From: Ptychodera flava
Taxonomy: Eukaryota > Hemichordata > Enteropneusta > Ptychoderidae
NCBI RefSeq assembly: GCF_041260155.1
Contig: NC_091947.1
Location: 34,606,032 to 34,670,031, forward strand
Reading direction: 5' to 3'
Length of the DNA stretch: 64,000 nucleotides
Both the position numbers and the translations under genes were made by a program. The stretch's first letter is position 1. Each line of letters begins with the position of its first letter. Of this stretch, positions 5,700-59,002 are shown piece after piece. The notes below the pieces were generated by a model that saw only the letters and a list, made by a program, of their open reading frames with translations, was not told the origin of the DNA and made no database searches.

Positions 5700-6765
5700 G
5701 CTGTCAGAGACGCGGAGCTTATCCGATAGGCTGATTGTCCGTCGTCGTCCGTCCGTCCGTCCGTCAACAATGGTCTTCTTCTCTGAAACCGCAAGTCAGA
5801 TTTCTTTGAAATTTGGTATGGAGGTTCATAGGAGTGACCTCACTCAAGTTTATTCAAATTGTGGTGAAATTTGCATAATTGTATTTTTGGGGCAATTTTT
5901 CCTGTTTTTGGTCAAGAAATCTTCTTCTCTGAAACTTCAAGTCAGATTAATTTGAAACTTGGTATAGAGGTTCCTAGAGGTAACCTCAGTCAAGTTTGTT
6001 CAAATTGTGGTGAAATTTGCATAATTGTATTTTTGGGGCAATTTTTGCCATTTTTGGTCAAAAAATGTGTATTTCCAAAACTACTCATCTGATAGCTTTG
6101 AAATTTGGTATACAGGTTACTACAGATGAACTAATTGATATTTATCGAAATTATGATGAAATCTGGAATTTTGTAATTTTGGGGCAATTTTTTCCATTTT
6201 TGGTCAAAAAATGTGTATTTCCAAAACTACTCATCTGATAGCTTTGCAATACAGGTTCCTACAGATCACCTTAATGATATTATTAAAATTATGATGAAAT
6301 CTGCAATTTTGTAATTTTGGGTCAATTTTTGCCATTTTTGGTCAAAAAGTGTGTTTCCCAAAAAGTACTGGTCTGATAGCTTTGAAATTTGGTATACAGG
6401 TTTCTACAGATGAGCTAAGTAATATATTGAATTTCTGATGAAATCTGTAATTTTGTATTTTTGGGGCAATTTTTTGCCATTTTTTGTCGAAAAATGTGTA
6501 TTTTCAAAACTACTCATCTGATAGCTTTGAAATTTGATATACTGCAGGTTTCTTTGGATGAACTAAATGATATTTATTGAAATAATGATGAAATCTGCAA
6601 TTTTTGAATTTTTGGGGGCAATTGTTGCCATTTTTGGTCAGAAAATTTCATTCTCAAAAAACTACTCATCAGATAGCTTTGGTTGATATGCTCTTAGGGA
6701 TGATCCAATATGATATATTCAAAGTATGATGAAATTGTGTATTTTTGCAGATTATTTTAGCCACT
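5700..6765. repeat. (tccg)n-headed array of ~146-bp monomers
   Basis: A (gtcc)n head at 5738-5764 is followed by repeated units holding 'ttggggcaatttttgcc' and 'ttttggtcaaaaaatg'. The 'ttgggg(c/t)caat' landmark falls at about 5887, 6033, 6179, 6317, 6461 and 6612, with spacings of 138-151 bp. Several monomers contain CCATTTTTGG, which matters when judging CArG-box claims elsewhere in the window. Open frames of about 73 codons repeat with the monomers and are not genes. Confidence 0.75.
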
Positions 6766-15654: not shown

Positions 15655-16215
15655 TTGGGAGGGCCCCCTTACCAAATTTTGTGTCCGGAAAGTGCCCGGA
15701 AAGCGCCCGGTAATTGCCCGGAAAGCGCCTGGTTCAGTGTCCGGAAAGCGCCCGGTGCAATCTATCATGATATGTAGCTCAATAGTCGGGAAAGCGCCCA
15801 TTTATGGCACAAACCGGGCGCCCGGTTTCTGCCCGGTTTCTAGAAGTGTCCGGAAAGCGCCCGTTTTTATAATATAAACCGGGCAAAATCCGGACGCCCA
15901 GTTTGCGTCCGGAAAGTACCCGTTTATGGCACAAACCGGGCGCCCGGTTTGTGCCCGGTTTCTAGAAGTGTCCGGAAAGCGCCCGTTGATGGTACACAAA
16001 CCAGGCAAAAAACGGGCGCCCGGTTTATAGAAGTGTCCGGAAAGCGCCCGTTGATGGTACACAAACCAGGGAAATAATGGGCGCCCGGTTTCTGCCCGGT
16101 TTCTAGAAGTGTCCGGAAAGCGCCCATTGATGGTACACAAACCAGGCAAAAAACGGGCGCCCGGTTTCTGCCCAGTTTACAGAAGTGCTCTCCAGAAAGT
16201 GTTCGTTTATGGCAC
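15655..16215. repeat. GC-rich tandem array, 'GTCCGGAAAGCGCCCG' units
   Basis: It starts with 'ccccttaccaaattttgtgt', followed by 'ccggaaagtgcccggaaagc'. At least eight further blocks of 'gtgtccggaaagcgcccgtt' are separated by 'gatggtacacaaaccaggca' and by the self-complementary 'gggcgcccggttt'. Continuous minus-strand frames through it are by-products. An inverted relative with the same start lies at 42300-42960. Confidence 0.85.
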
Positions 16216-20456: not shown

Positions 20457-20592
20457 AGAGTCCGTGACTGCGCCCCGGACAGCCAATTTGCAATATACCC
20501 AGCAATGTTGATGGCCACACACACACTCCAAACAGTGGCGGCGCTCTCACTTCCGTTTCACTTCTGCTCCCGCTTTCACCACTGCCACTGGT
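20457..20592. repeat. Terminal-repeat-like sequence (left copy)
   Basis: Two blocks sit side by side. The outer block, 'cgtgactgcgccccggacag' followed by 'ccaatttgcaatatacccag', is inverted at 37664-37706. The inner block, 'ccaaacagtggcggcgctct' through 'gctttcaccactgccac', is inverted at 23727-23800. Together with 37644-37712 these look like ends of one transposon family. I found no target duplication. Confidence 0.7.
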
Positions 20593-20599
20593 GACTTTG

Positions 20600-23500
20600 C
20601 ATAATAAAGGCGCATGAATATTAGCAATGCCATTCTTTTGTAATATGTCAGGCGAGGTCAATGATGTCATATCAAGACGTCATTGACCTAGATTTATGGG
20701 ACCAACTATACCGCGGTAACACGAGTTTTGGACGCGCGCAACCGAAGTATAAACGTAAAAACCAAGACAGAAGTGCTACAAAGTGTTTGGAACTCACAAG
20801 GAGACCCCGGGAAGGAGACATTGTAGTATAACAATATCGATCCCTACAGGCTACGGGAGAGGCGACAGCGAGAGGATACCGCGTACGCATATAAATAAGA
20901 CGTCGCCGTACTCTACATCTGATTTTAATCAAATTGCGGGAAAAGTATCATTTTCCTTCTCTTGACACCGATGATGAAGCGAAAAAATGACTCTGTTTAA
21001 GGGACGGCACCGTAGTCGTATGACCGTTGGATATAATTCAATGTGGTCAAACATAGACCCTCGAGGGTCTGGGTCAAATAAGCATTTTAAAATCATGTGG
21101 TATATCAGCATTTAAATTTGACATCAGGACGTGGAACACTTAGGCCTAAGGCCGATGAAGGCGAAGACAGCAACTTTGAAATGGCAAGAAAATATGTATA
21201 CATAAGTATTTTGTTTTTGAGAATGTACAATAAGTAAAGTGAAAATGTCATTTTTAGAACGCGGATTTTCAAGGTAAAAATTAGGTCACCGCTCTAGTTT
21301 TAAAAATATAATTAAGGTCCCTAATTCTGTCAATAACATAACACAATGCCGAATAAGCCTATTTTCACATAATTTTTGAAACCTTTGCCTGGGGTGTATC
21401 TGAATATCTAGCATAATGAAATCTGATCTGTTTTGACTGGGCAGTGTGCCAAGTTTCATGAAAATTACAATGGAAGAATAGAGTTTTCTATCATCTGAAG
21501 TAATCCTTTGGCAGCAGACGTAATTGTTGCTCTCTTTTCTGTATCATTTTCATCTGATTGTCTTGTAACTTGAGACCACATCCATATATTTAAAGTAATA
21601 TGGGAAATGTGATTTTCTATCACATGTTGCATTAAGGAATATTCGATTCTAACTTTAAGTTTCTCACATATCGCTATTGGACCAATGCCCATTATTTTAA
21701 TAAAGATCTAGACAGTGTCCCTTGAAAATAACGATATCTGCGGAACTGAAGGCTCCCAAAACGTGACTGCAGGCAGTTTTATTTGAAATAGATAAAGATT
21801 AATGATGTTGTCATCATTATTTTCATATTGGAAACCCTCCTTTGATACTCAACAAATCGTACACATGTCAACCACATCACATTCCGATGACGACAGCCAT
21901 ACGCCTAAAGTAATGTATCGTCACTGAAATTTGCTATTTCCTCTTGTGCAAGTCGTAGCATCTCTGCTACCATGTCATTTGCCTCAATTGACACGATGTC
22001 GTTCCCTCAAGACTGTGCTACTTTTACGAGCAAGGGTGATTGCAAAATGGTCAATGTAGGCTCAGAGTTAGAGGGAAGGGAAAAAGGGCAAGCGACGCAT
22101 GACATATTTCTCGAGCAAACAAAATTAGTAGCCCTCATTTTATGACTAATGAAATATTATCCTGAGCTAGTTTACATCACGAATTTCACAGTCGTCGTCA
22201 AATTTCCTTTTCCAAACTACGTTTTACATGGTCGACACTTGAAAATAGCTTGAAGTAAAACCATCCACAGAGAAACTGCAAATGACGACCGAATTCGAAC
22301 GAAATAAGATGCCGCCATCAAGAAGGCTCTAGTTACATAAGATTGTATGAATCCCCAACACTTTGACATTTGTCGACATGTTGCCACTATGTCAGCAAAT
22401 AACATGGCAATAAATTTAGCCCTCTGCACCCCTCGGCCAAATCCCCACCAAATCGAATGCGACAATCTAGCAACAGATTAATTTAGTATCTGGCTGAAAA
22501 CAGAAATATCGCGATACCGAATACATATTATCAAAAGGAACCAGTATTCGCAACTGCGCCTGTGCGAGTTTCTTGTTTACAAACATGCATTTCGTGCACG
22601 ATATCTAGATGCACCTCATCATCATAGCTGTAACATTGAAATTATACGATGTAGATTATGACAGATATGTTTTAACTTTCATCAATCACCATCGTATCTT
22701 GAATACAGTGTTTACATTGGTCGTATGAGTCCCATGCGACCTTTAAGCGCAGCTCCGACGACTATATCCCTTCAAATAACATGTCTGGATCAAATGATAT
22801 ACGTATTCATCCAGTTAAAACAAGACAATTGAAATAATCATCTGGCCATTTGTGTACGGCGAAAAAAGAATGGCGTGCCACAAGTCTTTGAAAGCGTGTC
22901 GTTCAGATGCACTGAAAAGAAATGAAAGTGATATTTAAGCAATAAACCTATGTCCATATGTCTAATGTCTTGTTTTGCCGCAAAATATCACGGATTATTT
23001 ACCAGTAATTTAAATGAGTGTCAGAGGCAATGTGAGAGTATCATGTGATAGAGACTTTCATTTTTGCTATTTAGTAAAGTAATGATAGAAATTTAAATAA
23101 AATGAAATAAAGTTTAAATACAGCCATTCAAAATGTATTTACACAAAAGACACAAAAGTTTTTTCCTCATCAGTGAGTGCTGCTAGTTTTGAAAGTTTAT
23201 ATAAGAATAATTTTTTATGCTATCACCCGTAAAGTTCATTTCAATGCTGGCCATTACCTGGCAGCAGCAGTTTTCAAGATGTGATCATGTTTCATTGTAC
23301 TTGCTCACTTTCAAAAGTTTAGTGTGTTGTGTGTGGTACACCTGGTACCACCACTATTTTGTGGTTCAAGATGACCCCCTTGCCTTTGTCATTTTCAATA
23401 TGTTCCTTGGACCTGGTAACTTTCTTAGTTCCTTGAATGATAACGATTATTGGACCTGATTTGATGTCTATTGAAAAATGAAAGTGCCATAAGTGTTGTC

Positions 23501-23720
23501 TGCTTCGGTGCCACCCTTCACTCACGTTATTGTATCAGAGACATTCACCCACGAAAAGTAGGTCCAACGATTTTCGCAAATATACGACAAAAACCAACAT
23601 AAAGACATCTTTTATACTTTATTCCTTTACTTTGGAATTAAATATAGCCATACAGAGCTTGACATTGTTGAAATTTGCAATCAAGTGAACTTCGTAAAAA
23701 TGTGGTAAATCACCACATTT
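20600..23720. other. Interior of the 20.5/23.8 kb inverted-repeat pair, no gene recognised
   Basis: About 3.1 kb with no frame above ~90 codons and no domain. A segment at about 22690-22765 ('cagtgtttacattggtcgta...gcgcag(c/t)tccgacgact') has a direct copy at about 56478-56550, so it is part of a dispersed repeat. Confidence 0.5.
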
Positions 23721-23726
23721 TTGCCA

Positions 23727-23815
23727 CCGGTGGCAGTGGTGAAAGCGGGAGCAGAAGTGAAACGGAAGTGAGAGCGCCGCCACTGTTTGGAGTGTGGGCC
23801 ACACAGTGATATCGC
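23727..23815. repeat. Terminal-repeat-like sequence (inverted copy)
   Basis: 'ggcagtggtgaaagcgggag' followed by 'cagaagtgaaacggaagtga' and 'gagcgccgccactgtttgga' is the reverse complement of 20525-20590. The adjoining 'gtgatatcgct' resembles 'atgatatcgctgggtat' at about 37656. It lacks the outer 'gcgccccggacagcc' block. Confidence 0.75.
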
Positions 23816-24969
23816 TCAGCGTTTAGCTGTAGGCCTTTGCAGGCATTTACGTTGCCGACGCACTAAGCGCCCCATGAATCCAGACTAATATTATATAGGG
23901 CTCAGCCCTTGGTGTCGTGCCAGGGGTATTAAAGATTGGCAATGTTATGTGTATTGATTCATGATAAACTGTAATTGTTACTTCATAAACGTTTATATGA
24001 CAACTACCGGTATGCGCAGTTTCCCTCTGATGAAAGCAGTTCACGTATGTACACGACGTCAAACCCTGCAGCAGGGCAGGTGTAGATTTTCTGTAGCGTG
24101 TAAAGATTTTGGACAAAAATTGGCAACTTTTACAATGATAACAGCCTATTGCGTTTAAACAAGGGACGTATTATGCAATCATTATCGTTGCAATGGTACC
24201 CGCACTGCCCACCTTCCACTTGCAAGCTGAAAAACTATAGCGTTCCGTCTAAAAACTGGCATTTTTGAATCTAATTATTGACACAGGGGGCGCTCTTCTA
24301 TAATTCAATCCCAGCATTCTTTGCGTATGCCCCCGTTCATATGCACGACAGTTTTCTCCCTTTATCTATATTAACGATATTTTGTATCAGCGACAAGGTG
24401 CATAATAACATTCACTGGCTAATAAAAGAGGTATATTTTATAAAAGGCATGTTATATAATAGCAATTTGTTTCGTATTTGTTTATTTACGAGTACTCAAA
24501 AAAAAAAACATGGCGGCGCCCACGAAAGAAGGGTACACTTCCGGTACTCGCATAGTATATTATGAATAAGCGCATGCGTAGTCAGTAAGCCGCTGGCGCA
24601 ACTATAAATAACGTGTCTGGATCAAACCTTTCCTGTACAGGTACGGTCCAGAATATGGTCATCAAACCTGTAACATTTTATCCCATATTTTGACGTCTTG
24701 TATCGGTAAAGTTGTATGGGACACTGTGATATTTTAAAAATAAAGTTATCATTTTCGTTTATTGTCGTTGCCTAGAGTGAGTGATTAATTAACACCATTT
24801 TCTAAGTTTCTGCTCAGTGAGACCCCGAAATTGAAATTTTGAGTGCCCTTTCCGGTTTAACGTAAACACAGTCGTGACGTAAAATTACCGCTTACACAGA
24901 CATCGCCAAGTTCAGTGCAGTCAAAACTTTCACCGGTCGGTCGTCACTCATTGCCAGGAACTTTCAAAT

Positions 24970-25966
24970 ATGTCAAAAATAACCGACATCGACAAACGGT
25001 CGAAGATCATTGACTTGTCGATCAAAGGGACAAGTGTTCGAGAGATCGCGCATCAACTATGTATGCCGAAGACAACCGTGCATGACATAGTAACTCACTT
25101 TCTTAAGACTGGATTCGTTCATCCTTCGAAGAATCGCGGAGCCCTACGATCAAAGTGCGTACCCGAAGTCGTGTATTTCGTGGAACATTTGAAATTCGGT
25201 AAGTCTTCAATGACTGTTTCCGAAATTCGATCTGAACTGCTCAATCAAATGTCTGCTCAGAAGAAAACCTCCCTGCACACAGGACGATTTACGACATCCT
25301 CGGCAGAGATTTAAATTATTCCTACAAGAAAATACAGAGTGTTCCGGCTGAACAGTTGACTGAAAGAAACAGAAAAATAATGCAGTACATCGATGACATT
25401 TCTCAACTTGATCCCCTCAGTGTGCATTTTTTTGATGAAGCGGGCGTCAAAAAGACATCGGGCAACAGACAGTATGGACACAGTCTGAGAGGTCAACCCG
25501 CATTTGAAGTCCAGCGATACACGTCGGACTGAACTACACGCTAAACCTCCTTCATTGTGCACGGGGCGTCGATTACTTTAATATTCTCGATGGCCCTTCG
25601 AACGGCCTTGAAATGATCCACTTTTTTTAGGAAGCGCTGGAAGTCGTTGACGAACAAGATGATCAGATTTTATGTCCGGGCGACACAGTTGTCATGGATA
25701 ATTGCGGATTCCACCATGGTCGGATCGCAGAGCCATACCTACGGGAACTGTTGGGCGAGCGTGAAGTTACTTTAGTGTTTCAGCCTCCGTACAGCCCCGA
25801 GTTTAACACTTGTGAAATGTGCTTTCGATTTGTCAAAGGGTATCTCCGTAAACATGATGTCTTTGCAGTTCAGTTTACTGAAACTGCTATAATTGAAGCC
25901 GTTTCCGACATAACCCCGCTGATGTCACGCAATTTTTTTAGGCTGTGTGGATTCCCGTTTCATTGA
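24970..25966 (+). pseudogene. IS630/Tc1-type DDE transposase, frameshifted
   Basis: The first frame (24970-25314) gives an N-terminal helix-turn-helix (SVREIAHQLCMPKTTVHDIV) like those of Tc1/IS630 transposases. The reading then moves to another frame at about 25245-25260 and continues through FFDEAG (first catalytic Asp, ~25425-25445). It meets a stop TGA at 25530-25532, then resumes with NYTLNLLHCARG. After a TAG at 25628-25630 comes VVMDNCGFHH (second Asp) and PPYSPEFNTCE (final Glu) in the 25694-25966 frame. There are 38 residues between the second Asp and the Glu. The DDE triad is complete across lesions, so it was once active; this copy cannot make a full protein. I could not identify its TIRs. 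Confidence 0.85.
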
Positions 25967-26586
25967 TTTACAAGTTGAAGTTCACGTGGTCGTTGTTGTC
26001 GCGTGTACTCGTGTAGACGGGAATGCCTAAATAAGAAATTGATTGATTAGTTTTCGTTCTGAGTAGTCGATATGTGAAGTAACATTGGTTTTGTTGATTG
26101 CTTCGATAAAATTTAGTTCGATTTACATTTAGATAGCGTGTAAGTTAGAAAACGTTCTCCTTTATTGCCCTTTACTTGCGGGCTTCCAACTACTGCAACT
26201 AGTGATTTCAAATAATCTAAAAAGTGCGCGAAGGCTTTCGGATGATGCCAAACAAAAAGGCGAAAGTTTTTCAACTCACTTTTACCGCCACAAATTCTGA
26301 CGACCGCTTAGTGGATTTCTCGTTTGGAAGAAACCATAATGCAGGAGGTTTGGGGAGCTAACGAAACGCGTATAGCATTTCAATCTTACAATACTTTGGT
26401 CTTATAAAAATGAAAAGAAACGGTATTTGTAGAAAAGAAATACTTTATTAGCAGTGTTGTATTTTATGTAAAATTTTGTGTTATTCTTACCACTTCGAAG
26501 TTATTACCGTGAACAGCCACCCCCTGAAAGAAATGATTTGTACCAGGAGATGTGTTTACATTTCACAACTTTTGACACAGGAAATG

Positions 26587-26621
26587 CAGTCCGGGTCAGC
26601 TCCAAAATTGGAGACTCATTA
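26587..26621 (+). repeat. Left TIR (35 bp) with CArG box at 26602-26611
   Basis: Perfect inverted match to 37534-37568. Preceded by the duplication AAATG (26582-26586). Contains CCAAAATTGG, which fits the CC(A/T)6GG consensus, at bases 16-25 counted from the end. Confidence 0.95.
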
Positions 26622-26815
26622 ACATAATATACCATAATATGGCAAACGAAGCTAAGCCAATCAGAGCCACTGAAGTGCGCCACCGCCGTACGGTCAAAGG
26701 TCATATTTCATCTCGCACGAGCTGGTTGATAAGTTTTCCCTCGGTTCCGTGTTTCCGTGGTGTTCGTAATTTCGTCGCACCTATTGATTACGGGAGTTGT
26801 ACCTTGCTTACAGCT

Positions 26816-28195
26816 ATGGTAAGTTACGACCATACATTGCTTCCTTTCTCACAAACTTTTATGTGTGTAAAGTACCTCACCACCACTGATCGTGTAAACA
26901 CGGGGGTCAGTAGAGACCTCCAATCTCCATGCCATGGTACGGTCACGGCGTGAAACAAGCGCGCACTTTGTCTCTCTGATAGAAAAAGAGACTTCGAGAA
27001 CGGAATACATGTAGTTTTTTGACGTTTTAATCACCAACTATTATGGACTAAAGCTTAACTAGTTTATCTCCCATCGTAATTTTATTTATCATATATGATG
27101 TGAAAGCCCGTTTCAGTGGTGTTTTCTAATAACGCGTATCACAAGGAAAGGCATGCGGGTTGAGGGACTGTGGTTGAACTGTGTATGTGACGTCCAAAGT
27201 GATGTTGGGTTAATAATAATGGTTTTTAAACGACTGGCAAGCTACCAATGAATGGGGGTGGGGGTGGGGGGGTTGGGGTGGACTTTGGTGCCGGACTGAT
27301 GGTTTCTAATGCCAGTTATCGACAATGCAGTTACACAGCAATTTTTCATTGCCGTACGTTTTTTTACTTTGACCAAGTCGTGAGTTTGCTGTTTTGTTTT
27401 TAGGACTCTGCACACGTTGAAGTTGGACGTCGGAAGAGTTCGGGGAAAATGCCAATTGCTGATGAATATATAACTGACAGCAAGAAAAGACGTCAATTCC
27501 TGAGTAAACACAAGCAAGGCCTTAAGAGAAAGGTAAACAGGCAAATATGTTTCATGTTTTACCCTGAATGGCTTCCCTCGTGTTGTATGAAGCCTGCCAT
27601 GGCTTCATTTTCAACCAATCACAAGGTCTATATGTCTAAGTTCAGTGAGGTCAGTTGGTCACCGTGTAAAATCAACATTCACAAAGTTGAAGAATGAGGA
27701 CAACACACTTTTCAAAAACCGGTAAATGTAATGCTAAATTTCTTTGATAGCAAAGTTAACCGTTTGAACAGTCTATCTCTCTGAATTGCTGCCTACTTTC
27801 ATACAAAGTATTAATCAGCCTTATTTACGATTTTTGCAAAATGGATAAGGAGTAGATATTTCATGTATAGCTCAAATTCTGTTTTGCAGGTGAACAAGCT
27901 GCATGTGTGTACACACTGTGAAGTGCTTTTGTACATCAAGTCATGCAAAGAAACTGTTGTGTATGGTAGTACCAATACTATCAACAAGTTCAAGAGTGGA
28001 ACACTGTTGGTGGACTCTAAAAATCTGGAAGAAATTGAGAAACATGCTAGCAGTAGTGTACAACCACCAACCATTACTCCAAAGAAACCAAAATCTGCAT
28101 CACCTCATATGCAGATGTTTGCATCACCTGGCACTACAAAAAAGTACGTACTCAGTAGAGACACTCATCGTCAATACAGCTTCAGTTACTTTTAG
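26816..28195 (+). CDS. MADS-box-like DNA-binding protein, transposon-encoded (3 exons)
   Basis: Exons 26816-26818, 27404-27532 and 27890-28195 join in phase 0 into a 145-aa frame. The start ATG is followed at once by a perfect donor (ATG|gtaagt). The acceptors are tttttag and ttttgcag; the second donor is aag|gtaaac. Residues ~17-70 resemble a MADS domain: a basic stretch KKRRQFLSKHKQGLKRK where SRF/MEF2 have the FxKRKxGLxKKAxEL helix, then VNKLHVCTHCEVLLYIKS, matching the helix end and first strand of MEF2 (ELSVLCDCEIALIIF-like pattern). The ~75-residue tail is rich in Ser, Pro and Lys. MADS domains dimerise and bind CC(A/T)6GG sites, and exactly such a site is present in both ends of the host transposon. 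The likely role is TIR recognition or control of element transcription (inference). A weak donor (aaaaaa|gtacgt, ~28142) could extend it, but I see no further exon. It converges with the RAG1-N-like gene. Confidence 0.72.
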
Positions 28196-28875
28196 CGTAT
28201 ATTGGTCAGTCATGTTTAAAATGTAGTTCTTAAGCTTGTTCTGTAGTTCACTGTATTTTTATTTCTAAAATGCATGCTAGTCCATGGAAGTTTTTCTCCC
28301 ATTGAGTTTGTTCGTTTTACACTTTCTTTTTTAAACTGAAGCAATTTAATTGCTGTGATTACCTTGTTCTATTTAGATTGTATTTCAATTTAATATTGTA
28401 TGCTATCTTATTTGATGTTTTCTGTGCATTTTTTCCTCAATTTACACAAAAGTATTTACCACTCATTGTCAGTGAAAGGACATTTGATCATCATTTTCAG
28501 TTTTTTCCCAATATAACTCACAGTGATGTGATATTTGCATTTACCAAAAAAAAAAAAATAAATGAGACAAGATATTTTTTCTGAGAGTTTAAGAAAGATA
28601 TATATTGAGAATATAGATATAAGTACACAACATTTATCTGTATTTTATATTTTTTTGAGTTATAATAAACCATTATCTTTATATCTTATAAGGCATCATG
28701 ATTCCCTCCCCAAAATTTGGAGCGAAACTTTGCATAAAAGAACTTTATTTAACCCAGTCATAGAAAACAGGTGTCATGACTCTTTTTGCCCTAATCTAAT
28801 TGAAGCATATTCAAACATGACTTTCACTCACAAATTGGTTACACTTATGATGCTTCTAGTTTCATTACTGTAATA
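28196..28875. other. Convergent intergenic region inside the transposon
   Basis: AT-rich 680 bp between the stop of the MADS-like gene (+) and the stop of the RAG1-N-like gene (-). It would hold the 3' ends of both transcripts. Open frames here are short and unsupported. Confidence 0.5.
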
Positions 28876-31800
28876 TTACATTTCTTCATTCTCAAATGCT
28901 TCATTCTTTGCTATGTCTTCTGCTATGTCCAAAACAGCTGCTCCTTCTGCAGCATTTAAGAAATCAATAACAGCCTCTTTCAGTGCTTTTTTCTTTATTT
29001 CCTGCATCCTAACCTCAAACTCTGCCTTTGTATTTTCATTCCTCATACTTTTTACAACTTCCTCTGCTTTCGCTATTAACTCTGCTTTTGTTCTGCTCTG
29101 AAGTGATTCACCTTTCTTTCTTTGCTCTGGTGTGACATATATCTGTACAAATTTACTTCTTATGCTTGCTTTGGATTCATTCCCAAGCACACACTGGTAC
29201 AAAATAATCTCCATGTTTTTGGAACATGTACTGGTAAATGAAACAAGTTCTGGATCTAGCTCATTCCCACTAACTGATTTGTGCTGATTCTGGTCCAATG
29301 GTGTGGTCAAATACCTATGTAAAATGAAAATGTCAAATTCAAAATAAGATTAATATAATTGACAAGTAAAATTGGCAGTAAGTGTAAATAACAAATACTC
29401 TAATTCACATAATCATGTAACATGTACACACTTGGTATCTGATTTTTCCTACTCAGGCTACTTTCATGACACCTGTGTGACCCTACATCCACACATTTCT
29501 GTAGGTATGAGTTTTTTCATTTTCAAGTTACAACTCTGCAAAAGTCACCCATACAATTCAAAGCCAGAAAAAAACTCTAATGTATTTTGTCCAGTAAAAA
29601 CGGGACAAAAGTTGAATGTTGTATGACACTAAATCAACAAACATACTCTGATGCAAGGTTGCTATGGGGTCGCACTGTCATGAGCAGAGCATCTCTTTTG
29701 CTGGTATGGGTTTACAATTTTTATTTCAAACTCAGCACTCTCACTCATCCTAGAACAAAATTTGATTTTTGTTTGTTACAAAGGTGTTAAAAGTTGAGTG
29801 CTTTATGATGCCACACCAACAAAGATGCCAGGATGTAAGGTCACTCAGGGGTCATGACATGCAGATTGACATAATATTCCTTCAAACTTGCACACATTCA
29901 CAGAGACGGTGTTTTATCGACTTGTACATGTATACCACACAAGTCATGTGATGGCACTACACATGTTCAACATATGCATAAGTGCATGTATGAATGCATT
30001 TATTTCAATCTGTATTCACACGTTACTTGCAAAGCTGTTCACTTGAATTTGTGATTTGACCTATTACAGCTGCTCTATCAAATTAATTACCTCTCTTTGC
30101 GCAATTTTACACGCCATGCTGTAACTTCATTGTTCTTTTTCTTCCTTGATTGGTGGCTTGTTTCCCTTGTGTCATCACTGTACTGAATAAGTTCCATGGT
30201 CTTCTTTCTCAGCTGCCAAATTTAATCAAGAAATAACATTTATGGCATGAATCTGAGTGTTTTTCAATCCATATTACTGTAACAAGCCAGCTGGTTTTAA
30301 GAGGACACTCTTGACTATGAGATTAATCTAACACGATATTTACTTGATAAATATTATAAATGAAAATGAAGGACTTGCAAAGTCTTATCAAGCACTTCAC
30401 ATATTAAATAATGTGAGGACCAGTGATTGATGATTGATAGGGACTCTAAATGTGTAGGTGATTTTTATTTTCTACAATTTTTAAATCTGTTTGACTGGAC
30501 ACCTTTGAATACTTACCAAACCTAAATTGTCGAGGTTGCGGAATGTTCGCCGCCATTCACTCGCAAACATAGCCCCAACTGCCCATCTCTTTGAAGATTT
30601 ATTGATTTCCTCTAAGCGGGCATCCATGTCCTCTCCATTGGTAGGATTGCCAGTAGTAGAAATACTTTCTGTCTGTTCCATAAACCTTGCCAGCTCTGGT
30701 GGCATCATTGCTCTATCCAGTCTGAGGTACAGAATGATTTCAAAAAAGTCTTTTCTTAATATATATTATGAATTTATACTAAATAAACTTAACAGGTACT
30801 TCTATTAGGGCAACCAACTTGGGCCTTGTGAAGTGTACTGCCATCGATAAGATCATCCAAACTCTCTCTGATGAAACTGATGTATTTATATTTTTTAAAT
30901 TAATGAAAGTAAGACCAATGTCGTTCCAGCAACATCAATATGAATGTTGGATTTGGATACTGAAGGGGACATAATGATAACCCTACAATTCAAGATGTAA
31001 AATCTAGTTTATGTAACATGATGCCATTACATATGAAGTATAAGCTATGAGATCTCTTTTTTTAAAACTTACCTATCAAACTTATCTATCAGCTGATATT
31101 TCGAATCCCTTGACTTGCTCCACATCGGTGCAAACACTGCTGATGAAGCTTTGATTAGGTCAGCTCTATTCAAACGTACACCCATTCTGTACACAAGAAT
31201 AGCACCAGCATACCGGTAAGTCTGTTCAAATAGATATGTGTAGTTTGGATTGGTAGCTGTTGCAGCAAACAGAATGAAATCGTTCACCGACATCATCTCA
31301 TTAGCCTTCATCTTCTGTCTTACATATGGTACCATTAATTCCCTGATGTTTCCCTGAATAGCAACATCCAGTAGCTGCCAGGCTATGTGGTGATCACCTC
31401 CACTCATCGCATACTGTTGGGCTTTCTCACTAATAAATCCCATTTCATGTGCAAGGTCTCCCATGAAAACTTCCCAGTTCAGCGAGAAAAAATGTCTAAC
31501 CATGTTCATTTCAACATGCAATTTACCAGCTGACAGCACTACCCATCCGAACTCAGTTTTCAGTCTCGGCATTGGACAGAAGGGGTGTGTCTTCTTGAAA
31601 TGACTATCAAGCTTATCTTGTCCATATACACTTTCATTACAAACAGTGCATATGAATGTTTCAGAAATGATATTTCTAGCAAGCGAATATGGCAGACCAT
31701 CCATTGTGATTTTGAGCCACTTTCGGGCATTTGAGCTTTCTTCCGATGCATCTTGTGACACATTTGCTGCTTTGCCTATGGCTCTTAGCACCTCAGTGAC

Positions 31801-34508
31801 TGTTTCATAAGAGTTAGGATTAACAAAGATTGGTTCCCCACACTTTACTTTAACAGGTTCATCTGGATGTCTTGATTCCATGTGACTATAAGGTCTGCTG
31901 TCTTCCTTGACTGTAATATCAGCCTCATCTCCAGTTTGGGACACTGAAATAATATACTCCTTTGCCTGTGAATACTGGGCAGGTGGTCGTAGTAACATTG
32001 TTCCTAGTGTATGTTTTCCTAGTTAAATTGCAAAAATAAGCTGCATTATCGACCACGCATAAATTCACCATGCATTGAAATATGTAATTGTTCTTTGTGA
32101 GAAAAACTGTACATAGAATCGTTTACTTGCCCTGGAGGCAAAATTAGTTATAAAGTCTATTAAGCTTTGCATCCATGTACAATCTTGAAAGAGAGGCAGG
32201 TAAATGGCAAAGAAACAAGAATGTTTAGCACAAACATTTCATTCATGTTTTTGTTTTATTGTTTGTATTTTCACTCAGAAATTGCCCAACCATAGAATAA
32301 AAGAAGAAATAAGTTTCTTGAAACCATAACAGATTTTGCTGCAAGGTGAAACACTGCTACTATACAGGTGGTTTATATTATGCAGATTTCAGAAGACCTG
32401 TCATTTTTAGTTCTCATAGGTTTGAATGTCAGAATATGCTAGTCAGGAAATGCAATACACAAAAAAACCAACATGCACAAGGACGAAAGCCAGAGAAGTA
32501 CTCTAAACCAAAAAAAATTTCATATGGTGTGCATAAAATAAAACTGTACAATATAGATACAAACTACCGACCAGTTAGTTTATTAGTTGCCTCTTTGAAG
32601 TCAGCTCTACACTCAGCATTTGGACATTTCCTGGCAGTCTTTTTCATGACAGCATCACAGGCAGGACACTTCTTTGAATGCATCATACTCTCTATCTCTG
32701 TCACTTTCTTATCAATATCATCACTAACATTGTCCCCATCTTTGCAGTGTTGTGAAACCACTTCTTCCAGTGCAATTTGTGATAATTTTTTCATCTGCAA
32801 ATGTTAAAAATAGATAAAAAGGTTTATTAATTTAATTTTTTTTTTGATCCCAAGCAAACTTAAAAAAAATTATGAGGCATACTCACTTCTTTCTTTACAA
32901 CAGCAAATGACTCTGCTATCACTTTCGAACCAATAATCTTATCTGCAAGTTCATTCTTCAGAGTGTCATCACCTGCTTTAACCTTATCATACTTCATCCA
33001 CACCCTGTGAATAAATTAAATACTTCTGTTGAATTTCTTGTCACTTCCAAATTTTCTGACAACATAATTGCCAAATTAAAATGTTTATCAAATTCCATCA
33101 GTGATATCTTCGCTTTGGGTCTTTAATCTAATGAATGATTTAAACACATCAGTATTGTCAAAAAATCACTTTACTTTTACTATTTTATGAAAATTACAGC
33201 TATGCTTAGATTTAAGAGCAAATACTTGAAAGATTCATGTTGGTCGGACCCTGTAGAAAATAGAAATTTAAAAATAGTAAAAAACTGATGTGCAAGTCTA
33301 AACTGTGGCTTCTGGTGCATTGTCAAAAGATAGAAATAAAACTTGGGTTTCAGTTCCTTCTTACCAATTCAGTATTTTTCAGATCCCCTTCAATATCACA
33401 AAACTTTCCAAACCCCTGTCAGTTCTTCCCCACCTTTCCAGAGGTGTGTGTGAATGCAACAAAACAGTATATGGGAAAAATATAAAATACCTTGGTGATA
33501 GATTTCCTTTAGTTTGCAAAAGTCCATTTCCAAGTAACGCGTAGCAAACACTTGTGAGTATTGAAACTCTAGGTTTTCCACCTGCACGTACATCATATTG
33601 TCTTTGAATAATTTGGTCATTGTCAAACGCCACACCAATGTCCCCATGAGGAAGGCTGACTGGCTCTTGAGACATTGAACTCAACCAGTTTCTAAAAGTT
33701 CCCAGGAACCACTGGGATTCACCTTGCTGAGCAATGATACCACCATTTTGCTTCCAGTTACTGCATATATCATGATAGTCAGTAAGAATGAGAGTGGTGC
33801 AACAAAGGAAGTGCAAACCAGGTTATATAGTTGTTCCATTGCCATGGCCTTCTGTGAAACTGGTGTTGCTGTTGATGACCCTTCACAGAGACCATTGATT
33901 GCACTCTGTAGTACTTTGCTTCTGTTTCTGTAATACAAGTTTTCATCTAGCTGCAGTAGACTTGGAATTTCTCTATAGGTCTGATCAAATGTTTGAGCAT
34001 CTGCAACCACAGCCCTAGATTCTGATTTGAATATGTTGTAAGTAATTTTACATTTTGTCTCATTGTCCATGGAAATTACATCACATGTGTCAGTTAGAAT
34101 AGTTACGGATTGTTCTGTCTGTGTGCTGACATTTTCCTTGCTAATGCAGCATTTGTCACATATGCTCTTTTCACTCTGTACTGCAGCTTCCCCTAAACTT
34201 GTATCTGATAAGGTATAGGAGTGGTCAGGGTCAACTTTAAAACATATTTGACAGTCATCACTGTGGGAAGTAAAGACGTGCATCATTTTGTCTGTTCTAA
34301 AACGCTTCTTTTTAGACAGCCCTGCAGTCTGTCGTGTCTTCTTGGTCTTCTGATATATCAACTCCCCACAATCTCTGTATTTCTGACTGAAAATGAAATG
34401 CTTCAAAACAGCGTCTAAAATCTGTAATTACACTTCCGCACCCTCTGCACAATGTGCTCAGACATTGGATATGGAACTCTACATCTTCCTCGCCTACGGT
34501 GAAGTTTT
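28876..34508 (-). CDS. RAG1-N-terminal-like zinc module + zinc ribbon + C2H2 putative transposase (7 exons)
   Basis: Exons (5'-3'): ~34508-33491, 33004-32887, 32794-32572, 32018-31073, 30721-30517, 30212-30091, 29314-28876. All six junctions have GT..AG ends and compatible phases; about 1020 aa in all. Exon 1 has LCRGCG (34452-34435), then LWGVDISED (34371-34345), then MMHVFTSHSDDCQIC (~34280-34240). This order matches the RAG1 N-terminal pattern CRxCG...DV..D...W.PH...CDIC and N-RAG transposon proteins. Later come FVAPLSF..MIYAVTGSK and GDIGVAFDNDQII, a zinc ribbon CPACx10CPNAEC (exon 3), a C2H2 finger CTVCx12HFKKTH and GKLHVEMNMVRHFF (exon 4), LEEINKSSKRW (exon 5) and a charged, coiled-coil-like tail (exon 7). 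Exon 1 carries two lesions: one near 34306-34316, where a further Cys-pair segment also seems missing, and a one-base shift at ~33701-33706. Exons 2-7 are intact. The true 5' end may lie further upstream. Transposase function is inferred. Confidence 0.75.
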
Positions 34509-34509
34509 G

Positions 34510-35363
34510 GAGGGGGAAAATTTGGAGGGAGGTAATGGGGGAGGAGAGAGTAAGGAAAGATGGAGAGCAAATAAGAGGAAGGATTGAAGTTAGATGAGAT
34601 AATATTGTATTTGAATTTCTTACAGATGAGTCAAAGGTTTACCTTCAATAATCAGTTGCATTACTTTGTTTGTTTATCAGCATGCGAATAGATATCTGTC
34701 GAGGCAGAGAAGGGTCAGCCTTACAATACCCTCATACAGACCCAGGAGCATTACTCAAGGACCCATATACTCCATGACACACAATAAGAAGGGACACAAC
34801 ACACTTCAAAGTTGTTTTAAAATTTTAAAACAAGAAAATAAATATTATAAACAATTATACGTTCAAAATAAAACTCAATTATAAATATATAGTTGAAATG
34901 AGAATTCTTTGTTCATGAATATAAAAACATGCAAAGCTGGATCAAAAGAATTTCAAGTGATTATAAATGTTTAATAAGGGATGCAGTTGAACATACATGG
35001 AAATATAAACTTCAATAGACTCAACTGGAAGTTTAAAACTGTTTTAAATACAACAAAATCCTTAAACAAAAATGTGCCTTTTGTATGCCTTTTGCACCAA
35101 TGTTGGCAGCCTTTTTTCTCAATAGTGTAAATGAAACATATAAAACTATAAAATTTTCTACATGAATGTAAAAACATCAACAGCTGCATGCAAAACGACA
35201 CAATAGCTTAAAGGGACAGTTTTAAATATGGTATCGATGATTTGTTTAATATTTCTAGTGTTATCAGCTACAGTTTCTAGTTCTAAGAAAGAATTAAATC
35301 AAAACTACATTGAAAAATAAACTCTTGACTGAAGCTTTTCAAAACAACACAATACTTCAACGT
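34510..35363. promoter_or_regulatory. Probable 5' region of the RAG1-N-like gene
   Basis: About 850 bp between the HIRAN gene stop and the first recognised exon of the RAG1-N-like gene, both on minus. It must contain that gene's promoter and perhaps an unseen first exon with the ATG, since the frame through FTVGEEDVEF has no ATG of its own. No defined motif was identified. Confidence 0.35.
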
Positions 35364-37356
35364 CTACAATAATGTGCCCTCCGTACCCATGTTGGCAACA
35401 ATATTCTCCAACTTTTCTCTTGTTGATAGAACATCTTTTTCATTCTTCACAGTAACCTGATAGATGCAGTGTAACACTGCACCACCACCTGGCCTGTCCT
35501 GTAGTCTTTTAGTTCCCTTCTGAAACTTTTCATGATGGCTTGGTTTTACGCTGAGTCCAACATCATCAGTGTAATGACTGAAATATAGGGGAAAATATAT
35601 ATGTGATTTAAATTTCCACTTACAAATTTTTACCTGAAAATAGAGTCTCCCAAACAAGGTTCCCGAGTCACATAACTATAAGCTTATGAAGTCTATTTTC
35701 AGGTCATGTCCAACATATTAAATGCTTCATACATTGCATACTTGGTACACTGAGTAAAGGGCTTTTCAAAATAATGTTCAGCATTTATTGATTGTTGATA
35801 AGACAACTTTTCAAAACTCACCACATTATCTTTGAGGCAGTGCCATTGTCAAGCAACTCCCTAAACATTCTGCATAGATTGGCTGGTACACGGCCAACTT
35901 GACGACCAGCAATATCCAAGACCTTCTGAGCAGGTTGTTTCCCTCTTTCCTTCCTTGTAATATCATTATGAAATTGTTGTGGAATGTCACATAAATGTGG
36001 CATCCACACACCAACAGCATGGATATCATGCTCATTATTTTCTTCCGCAACCAACTTCAGTGGTATGTCAGTGTGGGGACGAATCCTGAAATGGTGATAT
36101 CTAGGGTAACAAATGAAAAAGAAGGAAAAAGAAAGTTACAGCTGTAATGTGCATATCAGAAAATGTTTGAAAAAACACTTCTCTGACATCTCCGAGTTAT
36201 AATAGCACTGCTATCTGATATTGTGTGTGGGGGTACCTCAGCAGTGACCCCTTACTATCACAAATTAAAATGACCCATGCTGCAACATTTTTGGTGGTTC
36301 CATAGTTTGAGTTATGTACATGTTACATGTTTATAAAAAGGTGCCTTGTTAGAGTGATGGCTTTGAACAGAAGATGCATGACATTCTCTTTCATCCACCT
36401 GTCCTGTGGATACAAGAATGTTGATGTAAAAGTGTGTGAACCAACAGCCAGCAAGCAAAATATTAAACATACATACCCTTTAACCACACTTTCAATTTTT
36501 ATTTCACAAACTGAAGTGGTGGGACTTGATGAAGTGGAAGCAACTGCTTCCTGAGCAACAGCCTCTGAAATTTTAAATATGAACATGGAGCAAAATTAGA
36601 CATTATTTTGTCCACATAAATCATCTTGATCGAAAGATAATATATCTATTTTAGAAGAGTGAATATGGTTCTATCGATGCGTACTCCATGTTATAAAAAC
36701 ACGGTCACATCATAATCAAACCTGGGGACGAGTGTAAGCCCCGGCCCGGGTCACCAAAAAACATGCATAAGCCGAAGTTCCCTACCCTGCGTAATCGATG
36801 GGGCAAGTCGCTTGACTACAGAGAGGCAACACGATACATCTGCGAATCAAACACCTTTCGCCACGCCAGGAGTCGGTGGCTACGGAACTATGACAACTTT
36901 TTGACGAACATCATGTTATTTAGTGAAGCTAAGCATGGAGCTACATCGGCTAATTATATCATGGTCATTTCAAAGAGAGAGCAAACGTGTCTTCGCCAAA
37001 AAAAGTGAAATGCTCCTCTGCATGCTCTGGTGAATGTGTCAATTGTTTATAGCTTTGTCGGAACCATAGAGGTACAGCTGTAGATGCAACGTACTTTCAA
37101 AATCGCGTACCATTTTTAGTCTGCGTCAAACAACCACAACTTAGGTATCATTTTAAAGCTCTGACATCGCTCTTTCTTCTAGCAAAAGGTCATTCGCGTA
37201 CCAACAAAAACAACCTTGAAAACAGTATTTCTAATAAACATGGCAAACATCTACAAAATGATTCTCGGTGCTTGAGAGAAATCGATAAGCTGGCGGTAGA
37301 AATGAATCGTAAATATCTCGACTATTTTTTCACTTACCGGACTCGTTGTTGGCCAT
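35364..37356 (-). CDS. HIRAN-domain protein, transposon-encoded (4 exons)
   Basis: Exons 37356-37338, 36564-36477, 36100-35822 and 35577-35364 total 600 nt, exactly 199 codons plus a TAG stop, with all phases consistent. Starting ATG GCC AAC AAC GAG is followed by donor gtaag. Residues ~26-120 fit the HIRAN pattern: CEIKIESVVKGYHHFRIRP, then LKLVAEENNEHDIHAVGVW (the conserved L.LV.E..N..D..A..V strand), then KVLDIAGRQVGRVPANL (the ..VG.IP. signature). The ~75-residue tail includes GGGAVLHCIYQV. HIRAN domains of HLTF and Rad5 bind 3'-OH single-stranded DNA ends at forks. In those proteins HIRAN is joined to a SWI/SNF helicase; here it stands almost alone. A role in handling transposon or target 3' ends is inference. 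The start lies ~210 bp inside the right TIR and reads inward. Confidence 0.78.
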
Positions 37357-37533
37357 GATGTTCTGTTGAATATGTGGATCATGTTGACAGTCGAAATTTG
37401 TCGAACTTCATTAGACAAAGGCTTAATTAGCGGCCGAAAACTGCCGAGCACACTTGGCCGGTGATTTGTGACCCTGGCGTGACCTCTGATGTAATCTGGT
37501 CGATGATTGGCTTATAGTCTGAATACATTATCA

Positions 37534-37568
37534 TAATGAGTCTCCAATTTTGGAGCTGACCCGGACTG
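37534..37568 (-). repeat. Right TIR (35 bp) with CArG box at 37544-37553
   Basis: Reverse complement of 26587-26621, followed by the duplication AAATG (37569-37573). CCAATTTTGG on the plus strand is the same CArG box, again at bases 16-25 from the end. Confidence 0.95.
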
Positions 37569-37643
37569 AAATGGTCACGCTGATAACAGCAAGAGAGACA
37601 CACTTCACATCTGACCAAATGTTTCGCTAATTAATGAGCTAAT

Positions 37644-37712
37644 TGTGTGTGTGGCACATGATATCGCTGGGTATATTGCAAATTGGCTGTCCGGGGCGCA
37701 GTCACGACGTCT
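37644..37712. repeat. Terminal-repeat-like sequence (right copy)
   Basis: 'gtgtgtgtggcacatgatatcg' followed by 'ctgggtatattgcaaattgg' and 'ctgtccggggcgcagtcacg' is the inverted counterpart of 20460-20535. It lies only ~75 bp beyond the 11-kb transposon, so that element may be nested in an older one spanning 20.46-37.71 kb. Confidence 0.65.
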
Positions 37713-42299: not shown

Positions 42300-42960
42300 G
42301 ACACCCTAAATAGAGTAAAGTCCCATATTCAACAGGCGCTTTCGGACACTTTGAATGCAGTTGAGTTAAAGTCCCATATTCACTGGGTGCTTTCTGGACA
42401 CTTTGAATACAGTCAGATTTAAAGTCCTGTATACACCGGGCGCTTTCCGGACACTTTGAATGCAGCAGAATTAAAGTCCCATATTCACCGGGCGCTTTCC
42501 GGACACTTTGAATGCAGTCAGAGTTAAGTCCCATATTAAACGGGCGCTTTCCGGACACTTTGAATGTGATATTATTAAAGTCTGTTATTCAACGGGCACT
42601 TTCCGGACACCCTTGTTAGAGCAGAAATTAAGTCAAATCTAAAACGGGTGCTTTCCGGACACCCAAAATTATAAAGAGACTAAGTCAGCTTCTACCGGTG
42701 TGAGAAATTCTATTTCATGAGCAAACCGGGCAAAAACCGGACAGTATATTGTAGTGAAAAAACAATAAGTCAGTAAAACTGGGCACTTTCCGGACAAAAA
42801 CGGGCAGTTACCGGATGCATGTATTCACTGAAAATTCTAAGTCAACATCAAAACGGGCAGTTTCCGGACAGTGAAAATAGCAACCGGGCGCTTTCTGGGC
42901 GCTTACCTGGCACTTTCGGGCGCTTTCCGGGCACTTTCCGGACACAAAATTTGGTAAAGG
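42300..42960. repeat. GC-rich tandem array, inverted relative of 15655-16215
   Basis: Units of 'cgggcgctttccggacactt' recur about ten times. Early units alternate with 'tgaatgcagtcagagttaaa' and 'gtcccatattcac', spaced about 60 bp. The right end 'gggcactttccggacacaaa' plus 'atttggtaaaggggg' is the reverse complement of the start of the 15.66-kb array. It is followed by a G-only run (42958-42976). Confidence 0.85.
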
Positions 42961-43103
42961 GGGGGGGGGGGGGGGGATGTGGCACTGAAACTGATAAATT
43001 AGTTCGTCGTGCATCAGCTTTTGTGATCGCCACTCCCTTAGCTGGATTTCCTCTGCAGTTGTAAATTTTGCTTTTCGAATTTTAGTCTTCTGCCTCCCAT
43101 TTT

Positions 43104-48846: not shown

Positions 48847-50935
48847 GTGTCATCAACGATGACTTGTTTCTAAACCTTCCTGTCTCAATACGAAGGGGTA
48901 AAATACCCATACGAAGTTGAGCTAACAGAGATCGTCTGACTACGATTAAGTTAAAATTTACATATTTTTCAACTTTATACAATGATTTAATTTTCATATA
49001 AGTACGTAATTTAGGTTTATGTTGCATATTTTCTAACCACTCTGCTTGGCTATGTGACAAAAGCTTCTCCTTAAATAATTCTAAATCCAGATCAAAAAGG
49101 ATCTGTTCATCCAAGTCAACCTTTTGCAGAATTCGATAGTACTTGACGACCAATTATTACAATTCAAGGAATGATCCCACAAAAATACTCTTTGTGATTT
49201 TGTTACCGTCAAGACTGGATAAATGTTTCCATAGTTTTAACATGTTGATCCATCTCCTTGTAATGCACGAGTGCCATCCTGTATCACCCGTAACTGCAGG
49301 ATGTGGTGAAAATCTATGAGTTCCGAGAAAGAACCTCAGAGCTCTGTTTTGAACCGCCTCACATGAATCAAACTTTTGAAAACCCCAAACACCTGAACAA
49401 TAATCAAGAATCGGGAGTACACAGGCTTCATACATTTTTGTGTAGGTTTTGAATCCCATGTTCTTTAACCTCTTGAACCTTGCAATTAACGCGCCAAGTG
49501 CTCTATTCGCAGAGTCCGCAATTACCTTGGCAGTAATGGTATAATCAAGAAATTCATGAATGACTATACCTAAATATTTATACTTTTCTGCATAACCTAA
49601 TAAAATCTCACCTATATGAAAATTTACAGTACTCCTTAAAGTATTCTTTCTGCGAAAGTGCATTACCTTAGACTTTGTATCATTGATACTTAGTTTCCAT
49701 TTGTTACACCAGTCATTAATGCAATTCAACATCATTTGCATATCATTCTCGTTATCTGACAAAATAACAATATCGTCAGCGTACAACAAAATGGAGACGC
49801 TGGTATCACTATCTAAATTAATACCTCTGTTCATATTTTTAATTTCTAAAGCTAAATCATTAATGAACAGAGAAAACAAGGTTGGGGATAAGTTATCACC
49901 CTGTCGAACACCTTGGTCAGTAACAAACCAGTTTGTATGAAATAAATTTAATTTAACAGAAGCAAGCGTATCAGTATACATGGCTCGAATAGACTTGTAA
50001 ATTTTCCCATCAATACCGTTACAGAGAATTTTATATAATAATATAGCGTTACGATTGACTTTGTCAAAGGCTTTACGTAGATCAATAAAAGTTGCAAAAG
50101 TAGAGAGGTTATGTACTTGCCTATTTCGAACTATGGATGATAACACATATATGTGATCCTGACAACTTCTTCACTTTCTAAATCCATTTTGTTCATCAAC
50201 TAGTATATCATTAATGTCCAAATACTTTACAATCCTGGTATTTAAAACTGAACTGTACAATTTAGAGACGGTTGACAAAATACTGATACCTCTATAGTTC
50301 ATCGGAACCCGAGGGTCGTCAGCCGTATTTTTGGAATTGGATAAATGAGAGACTTTTTTCAACAACTTGGAATTTTCCAGAGTCAAAAATAAGCTGAAAA
50401 AGATGAGTTAGAACGCTTACTGAATTGTCATTTTTTAAAACTTCATATGGGATTTTATCAACTCCAGCTGACTTGCCATCCTTAGCTTTTCTAACAACTG
50501 CTTCTATTTCTTGCGTAGAGAAATTTCTATTCAATTCTGTATTCTCAACATACAAGGGATCAAGATTATCCACTAAACTCTCTTGTGATGCAACATACGT
50601 ATATAAAATTCATCATCGAAGTTACCTTGAACCTGGTTTTGGTACAGCTTTGAGAAATCTTTTTCCCACTTTCTTAGAACATAATTAGTGTCACCATTAA
50701 CATTGCCAATATTGTCATATACTTCCATAGGAGTTGACCTACGTTTTCTTGGGCCAATTTGTTAAGATATTGCCAGAAACCCCTTGGATTATCAGTGCAA
50801 ACTGCTTCAATGTCTTCTACTAAACCGTTTCTGTACGCACGCTCACAGTAATGAAGTTTTTTATCAAAAACCTGCGTTGCATTCTTAAAATCACGACGCA
50901 AACCCACTTTATCAAATGTGGACCCTGGAAACGAA
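48847..50935 (-). pseudogene. LINE ORF2 fragment (reverse transcriptase), 5'-truncated
   Basis: Reading on minus, a linker (GFWQYLNKL, ~50780) is followed by the RT fingers (DGKSAGVDKIPYEVLKN) and PMNYRGISILSTVSKLYSSV, then DEQNGFRK. The catalytic region has FIDLRKAFDKVNR, GVRQGDNLSPTLFSLFINDL and LLYADDIVILSD (~49790-49760). KYKYLGIVIH and a C-terminal region (YKVEKYVNF...LRMGILPLRIETGRFRN) follow. Frames change near 50690, 50380, 50165 and 49155, and a stop lies near 50580, so it is inactive. The endonuclease domain expected upstream is absent, consistent with 5' truncation. The YADD box and layout make it a non-LTR retrotransposon; I do not assign a clade. The 3' part resumes at 47200. Confidence 0.9.
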
Positions 50936-58440: not shown

Positions 58441-59002
58441 CTAGCTCTGCGGAGCAGGGCAGTGTTACTGGCTATCGAACAAGATTCAAAATGGCGGACG
58501 CGAAATGGTCCCCTCGCACAGAGAGAGAAATGCGAACTTTGCACAAGTCTAAAAACGCAGCTTAGCACATTGTGTATCTAAACAAGATGAGCGTGCTCGA
58601 AAACTAGGATCGATCACGATTTAAATTAAAAATTGGCTGTTTTTGGAAAAGAAGCTGCGCGTTAAAATCAGCAGTTTTGTCTATTGTGCACCGTGGGAGG
58701 TTATCGTGTGCGCGGCTCATGTGAAAGACCAGGCAAGATTCACCCTCAATCACAAGTACACGGTACGAAAAATTTCCCACAATTCAATGCGATTTGTACC
58801 AACGCAGATCGAAATGTGCGCGCGAACTTAATTCTTTTCTCACCAACTGCGCAGGTTGACGTCCAACGCTCAGTTACACCTAGACACTGCATATGTATGC
58901 GGAGTGGCTTGGCCGATCGGCTCTGTGAAAACGTACTTTCAGACATCGTCGTGTTTTTTAACGCTCATTCTGTGATATTTTCTAAAAAAATATAAGTCAA
59001 AT

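Follow-up and report, generated by a model that had tools for sequence, protein, structure and literature searches.

Can a transposon encode the transcription factor that acts on its own ends? The question is raised by an element of about 11 kb in the hemichordate Ptychodera flava, which occupies positions 26587-37568 of the 64-kb stretch of genomic DNA analyzed here (contig NC_091947.1; the window) and has the layout of a cut-and-paste DNA transposon. MADS-box proteins bind DNA and are most familiar as switches of genes in development; on profile and alignment evidence the element encodes a MADS-domain protein. The steps beyond that point are ones that we infer. In the full reading, for which we judge the chances to be about even, the 11-kb transposon specifies a DUF6589-like transposase, a HIRAN-like protein and a MADS protein, and the MADS protein acts on CArG boxes in the terminal inverted repeats (TIRs).

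The MADS gene lies on the forward strand just inside the left end of the element. Its three exons, at 26816..26818 (the start codon), 27404..27532 (the basic helix, covered by the Pfam SRF-TF match of the spliced protein) and 27890..28195 (the strands and the C-terminal part, covered by the relative P0002), join into an open frame of 145 amino acids with no stop. A 204-residue NCBI entry, 'uncharacterized protein [Ptychodera flava]', includes this 145-residue sequence at 100% identity across both junctions; the NCBI model starts upstream, at 26639. A preliminary description of the locus had proposed a spliced gene of this length with a MADS-like basic helix and strand, and the frame is borne out as described and the MADS resemblance at the level of the profile, so that at this level the proposal escapes the refutation that a lack of any MADS match would have brought. 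The Pfam SRF-TF profile matches residues 23-65 of the protein with an E-value of 6.1e-7 and a score of 29.2 bits, above the curated cut-off of 26 bits, and the match extends over 43 of the 48 profile positions. No SRF-TF match was obtained with any of 10 letter shuffles of the protein. P0001, a relative recovered by protein search, scored 28.1 bits with the same profile and is also assigned PF00319 by an independent source. When the full protein was searched against solved structures, 17 sequences were returned at E ≤1 (best 0.0038). With the first 110 residues there were 16 at E ≤0.05 (best 0.0021), and all 16 were MADS proteins (MEF2A-D, SRF and MCM1).

The MADS domain is 31-34% identical to those of MEF2D (20/59 residues) and SRF (17/55 residues). 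It retains the helix core S-K-x-K-x-G-L-x-[KR]-K, as well as the hydrophobic strand that follows. A second relative, P0002 (84 residues, from contigs of ≤651 bases), is 78% identical over exon 3, also in the region beyond the MADS domain, and keeps that exon open. P0002 ends in a different frame from the MADS protein of the window at 28139-28160, so that the C terminus of the latter is uncertain and a further splice there is possible.

The MADS gene is placed inside a mobile element by perfect TIRs and a 5-bp target-site duplication. The left TIR (26587..26621, forward strand, beginning CAGTCC) and its right counterpart (37534..37568, reverse strand), once reverse-complemented, agree at 35 of 35 positions, and the inverted similarity extends to 45 nt at 93%. 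The termini are of the CA..TG type (CAGTCC...GGACTG). The same five bases, AAATG, adjoin the left TIR (26582..26586) and the right TIR (37569..37573); this duplication was not mentioned in the preliminary description. Further in, the two ends have in common the subterminal motif TAAGCCAATCA, which contains a CCAAT box and is found at 26653..26663 on the forward strand, 67 bp from the left tip, and at 37504..37514 on the reverse strand, 55 bp from the right tip. CCAAT boxes are frequent in promoters, and the presence of TAAGCCAATCA near both ends fits promoters at both ends. A common 11-mer at an offset of ≤20 bp arose in 26 of 20,000 Markov pairs, in a test that was set after the match had been seen. 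Longer homology between the subterminal 300-bp stretches (TIRs excluded) was considered and rejected, the gapped score being reached by 8 of 500 shuffled pairs and, with stricter gap costs, by 142 of 500. The similarity claimed for the ends is thus confined to the inverted repeat of 45 nt and the common 11-mer.

Each TIR carries a CArG box at its bases 16-25, as the preliminary description had stated: CCAAAATTGG at 26602..26611 in the left TIR and its complement at 37544..37553 in the right. Both are of the standard SRF type, CC(A/T)6GG. A 35-bp segment is expected to contain this pattern in 0.57% of cases by the window frequency, in 0.20% by a first-order Markov model built on the element and in 0.21% when the letters of the TIR are shuffled, with the two TIRs, which are copies of each other, counted as one event. 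The coincidence of the CArG box with the TIRs is suggestive, not conclusive. A CArG-like site with seven A/T positions, CCATAATATGG, is present at 26632-26642, just inside the left TIR, and occurs at the left end only.

The anatomy of the element suggests how one protein might serve both ends. Start codons pointing inward lie about 0.2 kb inside each TIR, that of the MADS gene at 26816 on the left and that of the HIRAN-like gene at 37356 on the right. Since each TIR thus stands about 0.2 kb upstream of an inward start codon, a single protein could act at both. On the simplest reading the MADS protein would bind as a dimer to the CArG box at either end, and could both mark the two ends for the transposase and regulate the promoters of the element, each end being at once a transposase substrate and a promoter. 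The Harbinger Myb-like protein and, on ProtoRAG, YY1 (see below) act at TIRs in a comparable way. We infer binding to the TIR site from the co-occurrence of gene and site (chance 0.2-4%) and from this gene anatomy. That the MADS protein recognizes or regulates the ends of its own element is plausible.

Several observations weigh against this reading. The matches of the MADS protein to solved structures are weak; none reaches an E-value of 0.001, so they back the SRF-TF profile match and do not stand alone. Two basic positions are altered relative to MEF2 and SRF, with lysine in place of an arginine in the arm and histidine in place of the arginine that follows the helix lysine; we take both residues to belong to the DNA-contact surface of MEF2 and SRF. 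P0002 spans only the second half of the MADS domain and has no Pfam match of its own, and a wider search for MADS relatives (a two-row alignment at E 10, with 1371 candidates) again returned only P0001 and P0002, although distant relatives could be missed by this search as it needs shared exact words. With respect to the sites, two CArG boxes were found in the element against about 2.4 expected from its length, so that over its whole length they are no more frequent than expected, and the chance of a site in the TIR rises to about 4%, the sum of four window frequencies, if sites of the MEF2, MCM1 and CW8G types are also counted. Finally, the transposase of the window copy looks damaged. WSKSRDSKY stands in place of the H(3)H motif of its relatives (C(2)C is kept), and the gene has a frame change within 33681-33822. 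With these two lesions the window copy is probably unable to transpose on its own, although it has kept an open MADS frame.

How far the TIR site and the MADS gene belong together depends first on whether their association could be fortuitous. The MADS gene may be real and the CArG box in the TIRs a coincidence, the target of the protein lying elsewhere, at internal sites of the element or in host genes. CArG boxes are certainly not confined to the TIRs, as the preliminary description had cautioned: of the window's 14 CC(A/T)6GG sites, 12 are found beyond the ends of the element, and CCATTTTTGG accounts for 5 of the 14, with four of its copies inside a tandem array at 5851-6681. The chance of a fortuitous TIR site is 0.2-4% according to the number of site types allowed. 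It falls to 0.2-0.6% under the strict expectation, however, and the only two CC(A/T)6GG sites of the element are those in its TIRs. We regard a fortuitous site as unlikely, while giving it serious weight.

If the TIR site is functional, the factor that uses it might still come from the host. SRF or MEF2 of the host would then bind the CArG box and drive the promoters of the element, and the MADS protein of the element would act elsewhere or compete for the site. The TIR site is, after all, the standard one for SRF, and the element's own domain has diverged from MEF2D and SRF to the extent given above. There is also a precedent in ProtoRAG, where the host factor YY1 controls the TIR promoters and transposition (PMC7481187). 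Control by a host factor does not explain why a MADS gene of the element's own has been kept at the TIR-driven left end. The retained helix core of its domain also counts against such control. We consider such control rather doubtful.

Capture of genes by transposons is well known, and the MADS exons could be a fragment of a host gene that was picked up recently and plays no part in transposition. Accessory TET/JBP genes, for example, move between fungal transposons (PMC12730594). Nevertheless, an identity of only 31-34% to MEF2D and SRF is not that of a recent capture from a gene of this type, and in P0002 this protein is seen again as a second copy that has diverged, which makes recent capture very improbable. 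That a basic, lysine-rich protein resembles the MADS domain merely by chance is scarcely credible. The profile score of only 29 bits and the weak structure matches might be cited for it, but the score exceeds the curated cut-off, with 43 of 48 positions matched, and none of the shuffles has a match; MEF2, SRF and MCM1 align to this same stretch of the protein, and PF00319 is assigned to P0001 independently.

Returning to a MADS protein that acts on the ends of its own transposon, the enzyme with which it would cooperate is encoded on the reverse strand by a DUF6589-like transposase gene of about eight exons (28876..34427), as modeled from the relatives P0003-P0008, exons and motifs. The last exon is at 28876-29314, and the main exon (31072..32018) contains the second D, C(2)C and a conserved H-x-E-M-N. 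A P. flava protein is 100% identical to the transposase exons over the part covered. A search with residues 180-800 of the joined model (7414 candidates) gave six proteins at E ≤1e-3: P0003, which is the window's own, P0004 from another P. flava locus, P0005 from Holothuria leucospilota (a cluster of 24 members) and P0006-P0008 from Lytechinus. P0004-P0008 are 33-37% identical to the window transposase. The Pfam profile PF20231 (DUF6589; cut-off 27 bits) scored 27.4 bits with P0006, 25.7 with P0007, 23.7 with P0008, 21.0 with P0004 and 13.9 with P0003 of the window, and gave no match to P0005 at E 0.5. The gene model of P0008 is joined to a Dpy19 domain. The term DUF6589 was absent from the full-text literature searched.

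The five relatives have in common the motifs [FI]DNDQ and [CM]DGLP, a C-x2-C 17 residues after the D of the latter, an invariant H-x-E-M-N, an H-x3-H and a motif with two invariant glutamates. Thus 5 of 5 relatives have both C(2)C and H(3)H, two motifs known from the CMCT clade (CACTA, Mirage, Chapaev, Transib and RAG1). C(2)C is also similar to a portion of a C2H2 finger of the ordinary sort. Elements of that clade have CA..TG ends and target-site duplications of 2-5 bp (PMC12730594), and the ends and 5-bp duplication of the present element are of this kind. Because of these motifs, ends and duplication, the DUF6589-like family is a probable lineage of the CMCT clade, related to CACTA, Transib and RAG1; the link at the level of motifs is tentative. 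Against this assignment count the loss of H(3)H from the window copy, an hhalign comparison with one RAG1 core that gave a probability of 0.7% and did not align the motifs, and the absence of any RAG1 chain at E 10 from the solved-structure search of the transposase.

The right end of the element contains the HIRAN-like gene, modeled manually on the reverse strand. Its four exons, 37338..37356, 36477..36564, 35822..36100 and 35364..35577 (with the stop), specify a product of 199 residues, translation of which would begin 212 bp in from the right end. The third exon contains the domain, to which the 199-residue model is matched by Pfam HIRAN (PF08797) at an E-value of 2.9e-4. The score of 21-21.9 bits is below the cut-off of 24.7, hence the name 'HIRAN-like' only. 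This protein had no match among solved structures at E 10, and an NCBIfam search of four proteins gave nothing useful. The possibility that the HIRAN-like and transposase genes form a single fused gene was set aside on finding by eye that the exon phases did not fit.

Searches for further copies gave little. TIR patterns with mismatches allowed recovered only the two known ends within the window, and the 25-base TIR core had no match in viral contigs. No relative of the MADS protein was found in viral contigs, and none of the transposase alignment in viral contigs or prokaryote genomes.

The surrounding DNA contains other repeats and coding sequences. A 46-nt inverted repeat (98%) at 15664-15709 and 42917-42962 has tandem arrays of the CCGGAAAGCGCCCG type just inside both arms; its arms are possibly the ends of a 27-kb element within which the MADS transposon is nested, the flank repeat being only a 3-bp GGG beside a G run. 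A 3.3-kb element at 20522-23796 has 72-nt TIRs (99%) and the 9-bp target duplication GGCCACACA. Beside it, at 20463-20525, is one arm of a 63-nt inverted repeat (89%), the other arm of which lies just to the right of the MADS transposon at 37644-37706. Pieces of a Tc1-like transposase are found at 24883-25966 on the forward strand (a helix-turn-helix of the PAX-type/HTH_SB kind, HTH_SB with E 8.8e-8 and below the cut-off, PAX above the cut-off; DDE_3 with E 5.1e-11). A retroelement reverse-transcriptase open reading frame is at 49157-50170 on the reverse strand (RVT_1, E 2.9e-29) and an open reading frame with an F-box domain at 58976-59494 on the forward strand (E 1.5e-6, above the cut-off).

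To our knowledge, the MADS proteins of animals are of the SRF and MEF2 types only. The element may represent an animal transposon lineage with a MADS-box family of its own, separate from SRF and MEF2, in which a CArG code in the TIRs marks the ends for a RAG/CACTA-like transposase and switches the element's own genes on and off. For this wider proposal the odds appear to us to fall somewhat short of even. If it is true, a classical pair of transcription factor and site can serve as the end-recognition or control system of a transposon, and ready-made CArG sites have a route by which to be scattered through a genome. Should the CMCT motifs be upheld, a function would also be gained for the as yet uncharacterized DUF6589 family. 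No transposon-encoded MADS protein was present among the matches listed from the full-text literature, the scope of which leaves out most subscription papers and Repbase, and no paper in that literature had CArG, terminal inverted repeats and transposase together as whole words. The term MADS is absent from the available portion of the P. flava genome paper (PMC11175523). Accessory genes of other kinds, namely Myb-like, TET/JBP and SET genes, are known from transposons (PMC9179366, PMC12730594). What appears to be new here is the kind of DNA-binding factor that a DNA transposon carries as an accessory; accessory genes as such are not new.

The closest parallel is with Harbinger, in which a Myb-like protein encoded by the element binds to the TIRs and accompanies the transposase into the nucleus (PMC9179366). 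Both are DNA transposons that encode a separate DNA-binding protein. However, Harbinger has a Myb/SANT protein and a 3-bp target-site duplication, whereas the present element has a MADS protein, a DUF6589-like transposase and a 5-bp duplication, and its TIR binding is predicted; profile searches of its three gene products gave no Myb match. With ProtoRAG and Transib the element has in common the 5-bp duplication, the CA..TG ends and, in the relatives of its transposase, C(2)C and H(3)H. The TIRs of ProtoRAG likewise carry a transcription-factor site, through which YY1 alters transcription from the promoter and transposition (PMC7481187). YY1 is a host protein, in contrast, and the TIR of the present element lacks the initial CACTATG and its transposase a RAG1 profile match. 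The fungal TET/JBP DNA transposons also carry an accessory gene of a regulatory type, but the product is a DNA-modifying enzyme (PMC12730594) rather than a sequence-specific factor of the MADS type. Finally, the SRF-TF domain, with its basic helix and following strands, is that of SRF, MEF2 and MCM1; the low domain identity to MEF2D and SRF sets the element's protein apart from these factors, as does its encoding inside a transposon.

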